A stretch of DNA of 64,000 nt from an uncultured Veillonellaceae bacterium (lineage in GTDB: Bacteria; Bacillota; Negativicutes; Veillonellales; Negativicoccaceae). This document shows positions 4,418 through 53,646 of this stretch, piece by piece. Numbering within the stretch: position 1 is the stretch's first letter; each line of letters starts with the position of its first letter. The translations under genes were made by a program, and so were the position numbers. The notes under the pieces were generated by a model that saw only the letters and a list, made by a program, of their open reading frames with translations, searched no databases and had not been told where the DNA came from. Location: contig CAMCNU010000001.1 of the NCBI GenBank assembly GCA_945876385.1, forward strand, positions 1-64,000, in the 5' to 3' direction.

Positions 4418-5242
4418 ATGACAATGCAGATAGAAGGCCTGCTGACCACCATCCGGATACTGGATATTGTCGATATCTTGGTGGTTGCGGTCATCTTGTA
4501 CCAACTGTATTACATGATTCGCGGCACGCGCGCCATGACGCTGATTAAAGGGCTCCTGATGATCGGTATTTTCAGTATCGTCAGCCGCTGGCTCGATTTG
4601 CACGCGGTGAACTGGCTGCTCGAAAAGGCCATCACGGTGCTGATTGTCGCGCTGCCGATTGTGTTTCAGCCGGAATTGCGCAAAGCGCTGGAACAGCTGG
4701 GACGCGGGCGCTTCATCAATCGCAGCTCGATTGTCGATGATGATGAATTGATGCGCGTGATTGACAGCGTGGTGCATGCGTGTGAAACGATGGCCCGCCA
4801 AAAAATCGGCGCATTGATTGTGTTTGAACGCTCGGTCGGCTTGGGGGATTTTAACGATACGGGGATTTATATCGATGCGGTGGTGAGTGATGAACTGCTG
4901 GGCAATATATTCATTCCGAATACGCCGTTGCATGACGGTGCGGTCATTATCCGTGAAAATCGGGTGGTCGCTGCCGGTTGCCTGTTGCCGCTGACGCAGG
5001 ATCGGACGCTGTCCAGCGAGCTGGGGACGCGTCATCGGGCGGCTATCGGTCTGACGGAGCAGGCGGATGCCTTGGTGGTCGTCGTCAGTGAAGAGACGGG
5101 GACGATTTCCTATGCGTACGGCGGACATATTTATCGTCATTTTGACGGGGATAATTTGCGCAATATGCTGAGAAATTACTTGCTCAAAAGCGGAGAGCGC
5201 TTCTCCCTGATTGGCGATATGCTGAAATGGAGGCCCAAATGA
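4418..5242 (+). CDS. cdaA: Diadenylate cyclase CdaA
   Basis: 274 residues. Membrane-bound enzyme that condenses two ATP to cyclic di-AMP, the messenger for potassium/osmolyte and cell-wall homeostasis. Three hydrophobic segments (about 15-33, 42-58 and 66-83) precede the DisA_N/DAC domain. Its two signature motifs are intact: DGA at 173-175 and RHR at 205-207. Length matches the family. First gene of the classic cdaA-cdaR-glmM operon, overlapping cdaR by four bases (ATGA). A c-di-AMP riboswitch further along this window (36508) is a plausible target of its product. Confidence 0.97.
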   Translation: MTMQIEGLLTTIRILDIVDILVVAVILYQLYYMIRGTRAMTLIKGLLMIGIFSIVSRWLDLHAVNWLLEKAITVLIVALPIVFQPELRKALEQLGRGRFINRSSIVDDDELMRVIDSVVHACETMARQKIGALIVFERSVGLGDFNDTGIYIDAVVSDELLGNIFIPNTPLHDGAVIIRENRVVAAGCLLPLTQDRTLSSELGTRHRAAIGLTEQADALVVVVSEETGTISYAYGGHIYRHFDGDNLRNMLRNYLLKSGERFSLIGDMLKWRPK

Positions 5243-19185: not shown

Positions 19186-19375
19186 ACAGACAACCCCCTG
19201 CTGTGCACGTGCAGCTCAGTTATTTTGAACCAACACCATTACTTAGGGAGTCCGGCTCTGCTCGCAGAGTATACTTCTTCGGGCGGGAAGACACCCACCT
19301 GCAAACGCAGGCTCAAAATACGGCAAAACGACATGGTGGGGACTATAACCGCTGGCTATCCGGCGGTTATTTTTT
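19186..19375 (+). ncRNA. ssrS: 6S RNA
   Basis: A transcript of about 190 bases between aspS and rarA, the same position as a 6S RNA in Bacillus. The 5' part CCCCCTGCTGTGCACGTGCAG and the 3' part GAAGACACCCACCTGC resemble conserved 6S blocks. A CCTGC-AAAC-GCAGG hairpin lies in the 3' strand. Closing helices are available (ACACCAT with ATGGTG). It has its own consensus promoter and a strong terminator. 6S RNA mimics an open promoter and sequesters housekeeping RNA polymerase in stationary phase. Called from synteny, motifs and architecture; no covariance search was possible. Confidence 0.82.
19345..19375 (+). terminator. Terminator of 6S RNA
   Basis: 11-bp stem (19345-19355 with 19360-19370, one G-U), loop CTAT, six T. 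It ends 12 bases before rarA. Confidence 0.92.
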
Positions 19376-34226: not shown

Positions 34227-35536
34227 TGCAGTGGACAAAGTCGGCGGCGGCCTTTGCCGAAGCCAAACAGTATTTGCCGGGCGGGGTCAACAGTCCGGTG
34301 CGGTCATTCCGCAACGTCGACATGACGCCGCCGTTTATCGCCTCCGCCAAAGGAAGTCATATTACCGATATTGACGGGAATGAATACATTGATTATGTTC
34401 TCAGCTGGGGACCGATGATTTTGGGGCATGCCGATGAGGAAGTATGCCAAGCACTGGCCGCGCAGGCGCAGCGCGGCACCAGTTACGGCGCACCGACCTT
34501 GCTGGAAACGGAGATTGCGCAGTTGCTGCAGGATTTTTTCCCCGCACTGGAAATGGTTCGGCTGGTGAATTCGGGCACGGAGGCGACGATGAGTGCGTTG
34601 CGCTTGGCACGCGGATTTACCGGGCGCAGCAAAATCGTCAAGTTTATCGGGTGTTATCACGGACACAGCGACGGTCTGCTGGTCAAAGCGGGGTCGGGGG
34701 CGACGACGTTCGGCGTACCGGACAGCCCGGGGATACCGGCGGAAATCGCGGCCGACACCTTAACCATTCCGTACAATGATTTGGCGGCGGCGCAGGCGCT
34801 GTTTGCCGCGCAAGGTGAGGACATCGCCGCGGTTATTATTGAAGGCGTGGCGGGCAATATGGGACTGGTCGTGCCGCAAGACGGATATATGAAGGGGCTG
34901 AAAGCGCTGACGGAACAGTACGGTGCCCTCTTGATTATCGATGAAGTGATGAGCGGGTTCCGCGCTTCCCGCGGCGGTGCGCAAGCGACTTACGGGGTGC
35001 GGCCGGATTTGATGTGTCTCGGCAAGGTCATCGGCGGCGGATTGCCGGTCGGTGCATTCGGCGGCCGGCGTGACGTGATGGAACATTTGGCGCCGGCGGG
35101 CAATGTCTATCAGGCGGGTACGCTGTCGGGCAACCCGTTGGCGGTAACGGCAGGGTTGGTGACCTTGCGGCGCCTGCAGGATACGGCGGTATTTGCGGAG
35201 TTGGAAGCCAAATCCGAACGCCTCTGCGACGGTTTACGCAGTGCGGCGGAGCAGGCGGGACTGTCGTTGCAGCATCACCGTATCGGGTCGATGTTTACCG
35301 TGTTCTTCAGCGAAGAACCGGTCGTCGATTATGCGACGGCTTGTCGAAGCCGTTTGGATGAGTTTGCCGTGTACTTCAAAGCGATGTTGGGACAGGAGAT
35401 TTATCTTGCGCCCAGCCAGTTTGAATGCGGATTCATGTCGCTGGCCCACAGCGAGGCGGATATCGAGCGGACGATTGTCGCGGCGACGAAGGCGTTCGAG
35501 GATGTTGCGGAATATCGTGCCGCCCGTATGCGATAA
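34220..35536 (+). CDS. hemL: Glutamate-1-semialdehyde 2,1-aminomutase
   Basis: 438 residues. PLP enzyme converting glutamate-1-semialdehyde to 5-aminolevulinate. [47 protein letters not shown], and PLP lysine in [20 protein letters not shown] 34220 lies right after GGAGAGAG and overlaps hemB by seven bases; ATG 34226 is possible. Last gene of the operon. No hemE/hemH type gene follows, so the operon supplies uroporphyrinogen III for siroheme/cobalamin, and haem only if other loci exist. Confidence 0.97.
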
Positions 35537-35542
35537 TCTTAT

Positions 35543-35571
35543 TTTTCAACTGTTTGCAGGTATGGTACAAT
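35543..35571 (+). promoter_or_regulatory. Promoter of the glycosyltransferase gene, likely leaderless
   Basis: TTTTCA (35543-35548), 17-bp spacer, TACAAT (35566-35571) with TGG extension. Predicted +1 at 35578, two bases before the ATG. Confidence 0.6.
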
Positions 35572-35579
35572 AAAACCGT

Positions 35580-36545
35580 ATGAGACACCATGAAGAGTTG
35601 CTTGTATCCATAGTGGTACCGCTGTTTAACGAAGAAGACAACATTGCACATTTTTATGCCGCGCTTTGCGATGTCATTGACTCGCGTCCGGAAAGATTCG
35701 AACTGGTATTTGTCGATGACGGTTCACGCGATCGGACCCCGTTGCTGCTCAAGGAGCTGGCGGCGCGCGATGCGCGTGTACGCAGCTTGATTTTGGCACG
35801 GAATTTCGGTCATCAATTGGCATTGACTTGCGGGATGGACTATGCCGCGGGCGATGCGGTGATTACCATGGACGGCGATATGCAGCATCCGCCGGCGCTG
35901 TTGCCGGATTTGCTGGCGGCGTGGTACGACGGCTATGACGTGGTGCAGACCGTGCGTCTGTCGACGGCCAATGTCAGCCGGTTCAAAAAATGGACGTCCA
36001 GCGGATACTATCGATTCATCAACTCGATTTCCAAGGTGGAGATTGTCGAAGGCGGATCCGATTTTCGGCTGTTGGATCGCAAGGTGGCCGATCGGTTGCA
36101 GGATTTTCGGGAGCACGCCCGATTTTTGCGCGGGATAGTCAGCGATATCGGGTATCGGCAGACACGGATCACCTTCCGCGCACCGGAGCGTTTTGCCGGA
36201 GAAAGCAAATTTTCTTTGCGGAAAATGGTGCGCTTTGCCATTGACGGGATTACGTCATACTCGACCGTACCGCTACGACTGGCGCTGTACGTGGGACTTT
36301 GTATGGGACTGGTCAGTCTACTGATGATCGGGTATGTTTTGCTGGTCAAGTATTATTTTTGCGAAGCGGTATCCGGCTGGGCGACGGTCGTCGTGGCGAT
36401 TTTGATGCTGGGCGGTATCCAGTTGGTGTTTTTGGGTGTGATCGGTGAATATATCGGTCGGATTTTTGAAGAGGTGAAGGGGCGACCGCTGTATTGGCTG
36501 CGTGCCATTTACGGCGGAGCGGAAAACAACGGCGAGAAACAGTGA
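35580..36545 (+). CDS. Glycosyltransferase family 2, membrane-anchored (GtrB/DPM-like)
   Basis: 321 residues. Cytoplasmic GT-A domain: LVSIVVPLFNEEDNIAHFY, FVDDGSRDRTP, MDGDMQHPP, then two C-terminal membrane spans (about 233-256 and 266-290) as in polyprenyl-phosphate glycosyltransferases (GtrB, ArnC, Dpm1 type). It probably loads a sugar on undecaprenyl phosphate for surface-glycan modification; the sugar is unknown. No Shine-Dalgarno precedes ATG 35580, and no better start keeps the conserved N-terminus. The last codons also form part of the c-di-AMP riboswitch at 36508. Confidence 0.9.
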   Translation: MRHHEELLVSIVVPLFNEEDNIAHFYAALCDVIDSRPERFELVFVDDGSRDRTPLLLKELAARDARVRSLILARNFGHQLALTCGMDYAAGDAVITMDGDMQHPPALLPDLLAAWYDGYDVVQTVRLSTANVSRFKKWTSSGYYRFINSISKVEIVEGGSDFRLLDRKVADRLQDFREHARFLRGIVSDIGYRQTRITFRAPERFAGESKFSLRKMVRFAIDGITSYSTVPLRLALYVGLCMGLVSLLMIGYVLLVKYYFCEAVSGWATVVVAILMLGGIQLVFLGVIGEYIGRIFEEVKGRPLYWLRAIYGGAENNGEKQ

Positions 36546-36636
36546 TATGTGTGCGGGGGAACCATGCAGTTGGGGTGAATTTCGCAAATTGCGAAAAGGA
36601 GTGCTCTTTCCTAACCCGTCAGCTAACCTCGTGAAG
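36508..36636 (+). promoter_or_regulatory. Cyclic di-AMP riboswitch (ydaO-yuaA leader)
   Basis: Highly conserved blocks of this aptamer are present in order: GGGGGAACC (36555-36563), GGGGTGAAT (36572-36580), a hairpin TTCGC-AAATT-GCGAA (36581-36595), then AACCCGTCAGCTAACCTCGT (36613-36632). The closing helix can form between TTTACGG (36508-36514) and TCGTGAA (36629-36635); the 5' strand lies inside the last codons of the glycosyltransferase gene. No terminator follows; the aptamer ends one base before AAAGGAG of the next gene, which suggests translational control. Known members turn genes off when c-di-AMP is high and often precede cell-wall hydrolases. Confidence 0.87.
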
Positions 36637-36647
36637 AAAGGAGCAAT

Positions 36648-37310
36648 ATGATTCAGTTACGACGATTGGTGATGGCCGTGGCATTGCTGGCGATACCTTG
36701 CGGCGGTGCGATGGCGACATTTCATCCGGGAGACAGCGGAGAAGAGATACGGATTGTCCAGACACAATTGGGCGTCTTGGGGTATGAGGTCGAGGCGGAC
36801 GGTATTTACGGGCAGGCAACGGCGGGAGCCGTACGGGCGTTTCAGGAAGAACACGGCCTGGAGGCGGACGGGCTCATCGGTCCGATTACCTATCGTGCCT
36901 TAATCGGACGGGATATCCCCGTCAGTCGCGGAGATTTTTCGACGACATTGATTCGGCGCCTGGTGTCGATTGCACAGCAGTATGTCGGAGTGCCCTATGT
37001 GTACGGAGGAACAACCCCGAGCGGGTTTGACTGCTCCGGGTTTGTGCAGTTCGTAGCGAGTAATTCGGGGCTTTACGTGCCGCGGTCGGCGGATGAACAA
37101 TACCAAATGGGTCGCAGTGTAGCCGGTGATGATTTGCGACCGGGAGATTTTGTCTTTTTTTCCGATGACGGACACGGGATTTCGCATTCGGGGATTTATC
37201 TCGGTTACGGACGGTTTATCAGTGCGACCAGTAGTCGTGGCGTGGCGATTGACAGCCTGAGCGGCGATTATTGGGGAGACACATATATCGGCGCACGCCG
37301 GATGATTTAA
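36648..37310 (+). CDS. NlpC/P60 peptidoglycan endopeptidase with peptidoglycan-binding domain
   Basis: 220 residues. Signal peptide (LRRLVMAVALLAIPCGGAMA, cleavage near 23), a PG_binding_1 domain (DSGEEIRIVQTQLGVLGYEV to YRALIG, about 28-87), then an NlpC/P60 catalytic domain with Cys129 in GFDCSGFVQF and His180 in ISHSGIYLG. Exported hydrolase that cuts stem peptides during wall growth. The Shine-Dalgarno AAAGGAG (36637-36643) is only four bases from the ATG and directly joins the c-di-AMP riboswitch. A terminator follows. Confidence 0.93.
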   Translation: MIQLRRLVMAVALLAIPCGGAMATFHPGDSGEEIRIVQTQLGVLGYEVEADGIYGQATAGAVRAFQEEHGLEADGLIGPITYRALIGRDIPVSRGDFSTTLIRRLVSIAQQYVGVPYVYGGTTPSGFDCSGFVQFVASNSGLYVPRSADEQYQMGRSVAGDDLRPGDFVFFSDDGHGISHSGIYLGYGRFISATSSRGVAIDSLSGDYWGDTYIGARRMI

Positions 37311-37311
37311 C

Positions 37312-37333
37312 AAGAGGCGCAAGCCTCTTTTTT
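37312..37333 (+). terminator. Terminator after the NlpC/P60 gene
   Basis: 7-bp stem AAGAGGC with GCCTCTT, GCAA tetraloop, T-run 37328-37333. Confidence 0.9.
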
Positions 37334-37336
37334 CGT

Positions 37337-37358
37337 ATCGATAAAAATATGAATCGAT
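37337..37358 (+). promoter_or_regulatory. Paired ATCGAT sites before the metal transporter, candidate operator
   Basis: ATCGAT at 37337-37342 and again at 37353-37358, separated by an A+T-rich 10-mer and lying 19 bases before the transporter ATG. Could be a metalloregulator (Fur/Zur/MntR type) site overlapping the promoter; no clear -10/-35 pair could be fixed. Confidence 0.3.
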
Positions 37359-37376
37359 GCGCATGTGAGGAAAGCT

Positions 37377-38093
37377 ATGATTGCAGCGGAAGCATTGGGA
37401 TACCACTATGAGCGGGAGTGGATTTTTCGCGATGTAACATTTCGGATTGCGCGCGGCGAATTTACGGCGCTCATCGGTCCGAACGGCGCGGGTAAGAGTA
37501 CATTGCTCAAATTGTTGGGCGGTATTTACCTGCCGTCGGCGGGCAAGGTGCGTATTGACGATATGACGGTGGGCGCCGCGCAGCGCGCCGGAAAGATCGG
37601 ATATGTCCCGCAAAATTACAGTCAAAATACCGCGGCATTTCCCGCCAGCGTGGCCGAGGTGACGGCGCTGGGGCTGGTCACAAGTCGTCTTTCTCAGGCG
37701 GAACGGGAGCGGCGGGTCATGACGGTACTCACGGAAGTCGGGATGGAGGCGTACAGCCGATATCGTATCGGCGACCTGTCGGGCGGCCAGCAACAGCGGG
37801 TAATGATTGCGCAGGCCTTGGTCAAGCAGCCGAGCGTGCTATTGCTTGACGAGCCGACGAGCGGGATTGATTACACGACCGGGAGTGAATTGATGAAGTT
37901 ACTGCGCTTCCATAATCAGCGCGACAATATTACCGTGGTGATGGTCTCGCATGACCTGGAGCGGGCGTTGCCCTGTGCGGATCGGGTCTTGTGTCTGAAT
38001 CGGGAGCTGTGCTATGACGGTCGGCCGGACGGATTTTATCAAGCGCATGAATACGGGCGGCATTTGTTTTACGGAAAGCGAGGGACGCCGTGA
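37377..38093 (+). CDS. Metal ABC transporter ATP-binding protein (ZnuC/MntB-like)
   Basis: 238 residues from ATG 37377. ABC ATPase with Walker A GPNGAGKST (34-42), Q-loop VPQNYSQN, signature LSGGQQQRV, Walker B LLLDEPTSGID, and H-loop VSHDLE. Sequence type and the partner permease place it in the zinc/manganese uptake family. Overlaps the permease start (TGATG). No substrate-binding protein gene is adjacent. Confidence 0.88.
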   Translation: MIAAEALGYHYEREWIFRDVTFRIARGEFTALIGPNGAGKSTLLKLLGGIYLPSAGKVRIDDMTVGAAQRAGKIGYVPQNYSQNTAAFPASVAEVTALGLVTSRLSQAERERRVMTVLTEVGMEAYSRYRIGDLSGGQQQRVMIAQALVKQPSVLLLDEPTSGIDYTTGSELMKLLRFHNQRDNITVVMVSHDLERALPCADRVLCLNRELCYDGRPDGFYQAHEYGRHLFYGKRGTP

Positions 38094-53152: not shown

Positions 53153-53227
53153 GGGCCTATAGCTCAGGGGTAGAGCAACCGGCTCATAACCGGTCGGTCC
53201 CTGGTTCGATCCCAGGTGGGCCCACCA
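53153..53227 (+). tRNA. tRNA with CAT anticodon, probably elongator Met (Ile2 possible)
   Basis: 75 bases with encoded CCA. Acceptor stem GGGCCTA pairs with TGGGCCC; D-arm TAGCTCAGGGGTAGAGC; anticodon arm CCGGCTCATAACCGG; T-arm CCTGGTTCGATCCCAGG. The initiator features (C-A mismatch at the acceptor end, three G-C pairs in the anticodon stem in the fMet pattern) are absent. CAT could read Met, or Ile if C34 is lysidine-modified; the sequence alone does not decide. Confidence 0.93.
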
Positions 53228-53303: not shown

Positions 53304-53645
53304 ATGCGAGTAGGAGAGACAATCGCGAGCATGGCTCGAGGAAAGTCCGAGCTCCGCAGGGCAGAGTGCCGGATAACGTCCGGCGAGGGTGACCTCAGGG
53401 ACAGTGCCACAGAAATGCAAACCGCCGGCAACGGTAAGGGTGGAACGGTGCGGTAAGAGCGCACCGGCGATGGGGTAACTCATCGGCCAGGTAAACCCCA
53501 CTCGGAGCAAGACCGAATAGAAAAGGGAGGAAGTTGCCCGCTGACCTTTTGGGTGTGTCGCTTGAACGGCAAGGCGACTTGTCGTCTAGATAGATGATTG
53601 TCACCGTGTAAACGGAACAGAACTCGGCTTATTGATCACTCGCAG
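53304..53645 (+). ncRNA. rnpB: RNase P RNA (class A)
   Basis: Catalytic RNA that removes 5' leaders of pre-tRNAs. Conserved blocks in order: GAGGAAAGTCCGAGCTCC, GGGTGACCTCAGGGACAGTG, CCACAGAAATGCAAACCGCC, GGTAAGGGTGGAACGGTGCG, AAACCCCACTCGGAGCAAGA, and the 3' ACGGAACAGAACTCGGCTTA. The P1 stem forms between TGCGAGT (53305-53311) and ACTCGCA (53638-53644), which fixes the ends. Length about 340 is usual. Confidence 0.98.
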
Positions 53646-53646
53646 G

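Follow-up and report, generated by a model that had tools for sequence, protein, structure and literature searches.

A c-di-AMP aptamer without its P1 closing stem, overlapping a glycosyltransferase gene and predicted to occlude the Shine-Dalgarno sequence of an NlpC/P60 hydrolase gene

In the 64,000-nucleotide stretch of Veillonellaceae DNA analysed here (the window), a c-di-AMP riboswitch aptamer is seated between the genes for a GT2 glycosyltransferase and an NlpC/P60 cell-wall hydrolase, with its 5′ part in the coding region of the former and its 3′ part at the ribosome-binding site of the latter, which raises the question of whether and how such an aptamer could control the hydrolase gene. 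The full length of the Rfam covariance model RF00379 (c-di-AMP, ydaO/yuaA) matches positions 36522-36648 of the plus strand at 69.4 bits (E = 4.9e-14; gathering score 38 bits), and this is the one copy in the 1.52 Mb genome. The conserved core sequences CGGGGGAACC, GGGGUGAA and AACCCGNCAGCUAACCUCG are all present. In an alignment of 102 Negativicutes aptamers, in which 40 columns are conserved at ≥93%, the window copy agrees with the class consensus at 34 of 34 conserved columns outside P1 and at 0 of 6 within P1, which indicates that the core was kept while P1 went; the sole aptamer that departs from the consensus at more of these columns is L011, with 10 mismatches. The stretch 36522-36648 is a genuine c-di-AMP aptamer and a member of RF00379 that lacks one structural feature of the class, the P1 stem. 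An earlier note on this DNA had placed a c-di-AMP riboswitch between the two genes, at 36508-36650; the assignment is borne out by the Rfam score, whereas the extent gives way to that of the model. The overlap with the upstream coding region that it described is larger than it claimed, as the GT2 gene ends within the aptamer, with its stop codon (36543-36545) in the loop of the P2 hairpin, and both the P1 slot and the P2 5′ strand consist of GT2 codons. The features of the locus are as follows.

4775-5128, plus strand: diadenylate cyclase (DAC) domain (PF02457, 157.6 bits)
35543-35571, plus strand: promoter-like site TTTTCA-17-TACAAT upstream of the GT2 gene (scan; chance frequency)
35580-36545, plus strand: GT2 glycosyltransferase gene, 321 aa (open reading frame; Pfam PF00535, Glycos_transf_2)
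36522-36648, plus strand: c-di-AMP (ydaO/yuaA) riboswitch aptamer (RF00379 covariance model, 69.4 bits; single genome copy)
36533-36537, plus strand: slot of the P1 5′ strand (GCC/GUC in relatives), unpaired here (covariance model, alignments)
36539-36552, plus strand: weak P2 hairpin, ACA 36539-36541 with UGU 36550-36552, GT2 stop codon in the loop (covariance alignment, fold)
36553-36558, plus strand: core helix 5′ strand, GCGGGG (covariance and class alignments)
36598-36611, plus strand: P5 hairpin, GGAG/UUCC; its loop UGCUCU, 36602-36607, is the pseudoknot 5′ strand (anti-Shine-Dalgarno) (alignment, pairing)
36627-36632, plus strand: core helix 3′ strand, CCUCGU (covariance and class alignments)
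36634-36636, plus strand: slot of the P1 3′ strand, AAG here (GGC/GAC in relatives), unpaired (alignments)
36637-36643, plus strand: Shine-Dalgarno sequence AAAGGAG of the NlpC/P60 gene (sequence)
36640-36645, plus strand: pseudoknot 3′ strand GGAGCA, which includes the Shine-Dalgarno core (6 bp with 36602-36607)
36648-37310, plus strand: NlpC/P60 cell-wall hydrolase gene with N-terminal PG_binding_1, 220 aa, the presumed regulated gene (open reading frame; PF00877 and PF01471)
37312-37335, plus strand: intrinsic-terminator-like hairpin and T run 3′ of the NlpC/P60 gene (terminator scan)

Since a DAC domain is encoded at 4775-5128, the genome can plausibly make c-di-AMP. The site at 35543-35571 is the only promoter-like site on the plus strand of 35400-37450, at chance frequency, and no internal promoter was found in the 3′ end of the GT2 gene by a sequence scan, which is a weak method. 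The NlpC/P60 protein is 67% identical to that of a relative, the metagenome-assembled genome SUG113, labelled Veillonellaceae bacterium. Elsewhere, the window encodes a 6S RNA (19192-19346; RF00013, 65.8 bits) and a class A RNase P RNA (53307-53646; RF00010, 280.4 bits), with a tRNA (53153-53224) just upstream of the latter.

The P1 stem is plain in the class alignment, as GCC-GAA ... AGGC or, in three relatives, GUC-GAA ... AGAC, and because both sides of one P1 pair change together in relatives, the helix is supported. Around the conserved GAA, 3 to 6 P1 pairs form in 101 of the 102 aptamers, against 0 in the window copy; the scan takes the best of several registers, so that individual counts are possibly slightly generous. 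The RF00379 alignment likewise marks the P1 slot near 36533-36537 as unpaired, with four ‘v’ marks. Among the 102 Negativicutes aptamers compared, the loss of P1 is confined to the window copy. A different closing helix, UUUACGG with UCGUGAA (36508-36514 with 36629-36635), had been proposed in the earlier note, which also ended the aptamer one or two bases before the Shine-Dalgarno sequence. Neither proposal holds: the helix would consume UCG 36629-36631 of CCUCG, the near-invariant core strand that pairs with CGGGG, and was rejected for that reason, and the Shine-Dalgarno sequence turns out to be the last element of the aptamer, as the 3′ strand of its pseudoknot. By eye, inspection 5′ of 36522 for a displaced or substitute P1 gave only UUUAC/GUGAA, which retains about three usable pairs once the core forms and was likewise rejected.

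The loop of P5 (36602-36607) is complementary to 36640-36645 over 6 bp (−7.0 kcal/mol), and opening of the base of P5 would extend the pairing to 8 bp (−8.8 kcal/mol); this pseudoknot exceeds those of the nearest relatives in length, and its 3′ strand GGAGCA contains the GGAG of the Shine-Dalgarno sequence AAAGGAG. The sequence of a crystallised ydaO RNA (4QLM) is printed in PMC5393176, which discusses a pseudoknot; in that sequence the P5 loop reads CUCCUUCG and complements CGAAGGAG, 3′ of P1. The passages of PMC5393176 drawn on here leave the pseudoknot strands unnamed, and the match to the CUCCUUCG/CGAAGGAG pairing is our own identification; on this basis, the pairing of loop and Shine-Dalgarno sequence in the window appears to correspond to the crystallographic pseudoknot, and we count that feature as present. 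Comparison of own with permuted partners across the 102 loci shows that loops pair better with their own 3′ strands (14.13 vs. 12.64, sd 0.22; 0 of 5000 permutations), and the advantage persists when each distinct loop is represented by a single locus (48 loops, p = 5e-5); the reported test takes in only the hairpin loop and the sequence that follows P1, wide windows being noisy. Shuffles of the window’s own loop region pair equally well in 1.35% of cases (probability 0.0135). Some of the complementarity is generic, as could be expected from purine-rich Shine-Dalgarno sequences and a pyrimidine-rich loop: 51% of mismatched partners score 12 points or more as well.

With the Shine-Dalgarno sequence inside the predicted ligand-dependent fold, the aptamer has the defining feature of direct occlusion, and ligand binding would block the ribosome-binding site directly. 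The NlpC start codon follows the pseudoknot strand by 2 nt in the window and by 2-14 nt in 82 of the 102 loci, so that this layout is ordinary for the class. We consider it probable that the aptamer controls translation of the hydrolase gene in this manner. When c-di-AMP is bound, 36553-36558 would pair with 36627-36632 as the core helix and 36602-36607 with 36640-36645 as the pseudoknot, burying GGAG, and synthesis of the NlpC/P60 protein would fall. At low c-di-AMP, the pseudoknot would open, CUCGU of the core 3′ strand would pair with GCGAG 36532-36536 in the coding tail of the GT2 gene, and the Shine-Dalgarno sequence would be free. Closure would depend on the core helix and the pseudoknot; because P1 is gone, ligand affinity may be poor and is probably weakened. 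Ribosomes translating the GT2 gene traverse the P1/P2 region and should briefly unfold it. The earlier note had also proposed a translational switch, and control of translation has good support in the anatomy of the locus and is the rule in the class; its proposed means, a closing helix abutting the Shine-Dalgarno sequence, falls with the conflict with the core described above.

Two sets of loci show further arrangements at the aptamer 3′ end. In four loci from Thermoanaerobacterium and Thermoanaerobacter (L036, L037, L044 and L061), the aptamer runs into a purine-rich, Shine-Dalgarno-like stretch and a start codon, so that the layout with the Shine-Dalgarno sequence in the pseudoknot may extend beyond the Negativicutes. 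In a gene family whose products start with FGFGKTG, the aptamer is followed by a leader of 140-170 nt, long enough to hold a terminator, in L098, L100, L111, L113, L114 and L119, and the start comes right after the pseudoknot in L099, L102, L106, L108, L109 and L162; the expression platform was probably swapped between these orthologues.

The relatives found by the searches include no genome of the same genus. The order GT2-aptamer-NlpC is kept in L002, L003, L005-L009, L011 and L012, which share with the window an aptamer directly before the NlpC start and a Shine-Dalgarno sequence at its 3′ end; they differ in that P1 is intact (GCC/GGC or the covarying GUC/GAC) and in that the GT2 stop codon lies at or upstream of P1. 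Across the order, a GT2 orthologue (≥50% identity over nearly full length) is present in 60 of 61 genomes and the DAC domain in 60 of 61, and RF00379 was found in 11 of 61. Where the flanks were read, an NlpC/P60 gene lies downstream of the GT2 gene in families f1, f3 and f4, and a different gene follows GT2 in the f2 loci L211 and L224-L229. No RF00379 aptamer was found in the f4 genomes. With a model derived from the intact aptamers of relatives together with that of the window, we identified gutted relics between the GT2 and NlpC/P60 genes in L190 (E = 1.9e-6), L192 (E = 6.6e-9) and L217 (E = 5.8e-9), in which the outer helices, the ends of the core helix and the Shine-Dalgarno sequence are kept and about 50 nt of the ligand-binding middle are gone. 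A longer, mutated relic occupies the same intergenic place in L191 (E = 4.4e-6), and weaker leftovers, with little beyond the GAGACAGAGAGGAG end, were found in L218-L222. Intact aptamers, gutted relics and loci with none thus form a series within one order, and the restriction of RF00379 to 11 of 61 genomes together with relics at the same place indicates that the riboswitch was lost or eroded in several lineages.

A second c-di-AMP riboswitch target in the family is KimA, which was not found in the genome of the window. In the family relatives L004, L013 and L014, the gene for a KimA/YdaO-like transporter carries a c-di-AMP aptamer of its own; past the pseudoknot strand GUAAGGUC in these leaders, two pairings are possible, GGUCCC with GGGACC, or GACC with GGUC at the Shine-Dalgarno sequence GGGAGG, and a three-way translational switch is a possible reading of this arrangement.

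With gutted relics occupying this site in sibling genera, decay has to be considered for the window copy as well: an event that shortened the junction between GT2 and aptamer would have let the GT2 frame read into the aptamer and removed P1, leaving c-di-AMP poorly sensed and the NlpC/P60 gene on its way to constitutive expression or to another form of control. The loss of P1 in the window alone among 102 aptamers, the GT2 stop codon inside P2 rather than at or upstream of P1, the relics in L190, L191, L192 and L217 and the leftovers in L218-L222, the absence of the aptamer from family f4 while the DAC domain persists in 60 of 61 genomes, and the failure to find KimA in this genome all speak for such a course. 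However, all 34 conserved positions outside P1 are intact, the nearest relatives have shorter pseudoknots, and L011, the other low-scoring copy, has lost more conserved positions (10 mismatches). On balance, early decay is a possible but somewhat doubtful account; judging from the alignments, the window copy may be entering a path of erosion, along which its intact core indicates that it has not gone far.

When the pseudoknot is left out, the predicted fold joins GCGAG 36532-36536, within the GT2 coding tail, to CUCGU 36628-36632, a pairing incompatible with the core helix. Forcing the core costs 3.4 kcal/mol in the window, with the energy of pseudoknot and ligand not counted; in the P1-bearing relatives the cost is 0.0 (L002), 3.0 (L008), 3.6 (L005) and 5.6 kcal/mol (L007), so that in three of four the gap is similar to or larger than that in the window. 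Minimum-energy folds of the leader are no better than those of shuffles (z from 0.05 to 1.65), as expected for a pseudoknotted, ligand-stabilised RNA. These modelled energies are compatible with a two-state switch, for which they are weak evidence. An aptamer that works without P1, closed by the core helix and the Shine-Dalgarno pseudoknot only, whose 5′ region has been recoded as the tail of GT2 and through which glycosyltransferase translation and c-di-AMP would jointly set hydrolase synthesis, seems to us an unlikely arrangement. The coupling proposed in the earlier note, in which ribosomes finishing GT2 set the state of the aptamer and hydrolase synthesis reads both GT2 translation and c-di-AMP, is highly improbable; the element that such ribosomes would open is the pairing 36532-36536/36628-36632. 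In its favour, the GT2 frame runs across the P1 slot and the P2 5′ strand, and its codons pair with the core 3′ strand in the predicted ligand-free fold. Against it, the helix originally offered conflicts with the core, folds of the region do not exceed shuffles, and the GT2 genes of relatives stop at P1 or earlier, so that a link by way of the coding sequence is not a conserved trait. The overlap makes interference by ribosomes physically plausible; coupling to upstream translation is speculative.

Control of transcription, in which c-di-AMP would favour premature termination at a Rho-dependent or unrecognised site as in Bacillus ydaO, has precedent in the founding members (PMC6488665; PMC9960051) and would have terminator room in the 16 of 102 class loci whose start codon lies far from the pseudoknot, but it has very little chance of applying in the window, where no more than 15 nt lie between the core 3′ strand and the NlpC start codon, no terminator-like site was found by the terminator scan between the GT2 stop at 36545 and that start codon, and relatives have the same geometry. 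The absence of a terminator had been recorded in the earlier note, and its remark that most described members act through terminators agrees with the literature, though a translational nlpC member has been reported (PMC9960051).

Direct occlusion, the preferred reading, can be set against known systems. With the ydaO/yuaA class (RF00379), the window aptamer shares the core sequence, the GGG/CCC helix, the pseudoknot between P5 loop and 3′ end and a cell-wall hydrolase as target; it differs in having no P1, a 5′ end within an upstream coding region, a Shine-Dalgarno sequence that is part of the aptamer, and no terminator. According to the passages of PMC9960051 drawn on here, the founding ydaO member acts through a terminator, whereas the nlpC riboswitch of Corynebacterium glutamicum is translational, with a CTCC:GGAG pseudoknot at the ribosome-binding site proposed by its authors. 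The latter thus has in common with the window an NlpC/P60 target, the lack of a canonical terminator, translational action and the pseudoknot at the ribosome-binding site; it belongs to a different phylum and gene neighbourhood, and neither P1 loss nor an upstream coding overlap is described for it in those passages. The direct-occlusion riboswitches SAM-II and preQ1-I/II likewise hold the ribosome-binding site in a ligand-stabilised aptamer pseudoknot (PMC10907184, in the passages that define the group, where c-di-AMP is not named among the examples), whereas the aptamer class of the window is much larger and has two ligand sites. The gene target and the probable mode of control are ordinary; the loss of P1, the coding overlap and the context of erosion are unusual.

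Taken together, these comparisons make the Negativicutes expression platform readable from sequence, as in most loci the Shine-Dalgarno sequence is the pseudoknot 3′ strand, and C. glutamicum nlpC, the one experimentally supported translational case, becomes a testable general rule. Together with the relics of sister genera, the copy without P1 offers a natural series in which to follow the loss of a riboswitch whose gene pair and ligand persist.
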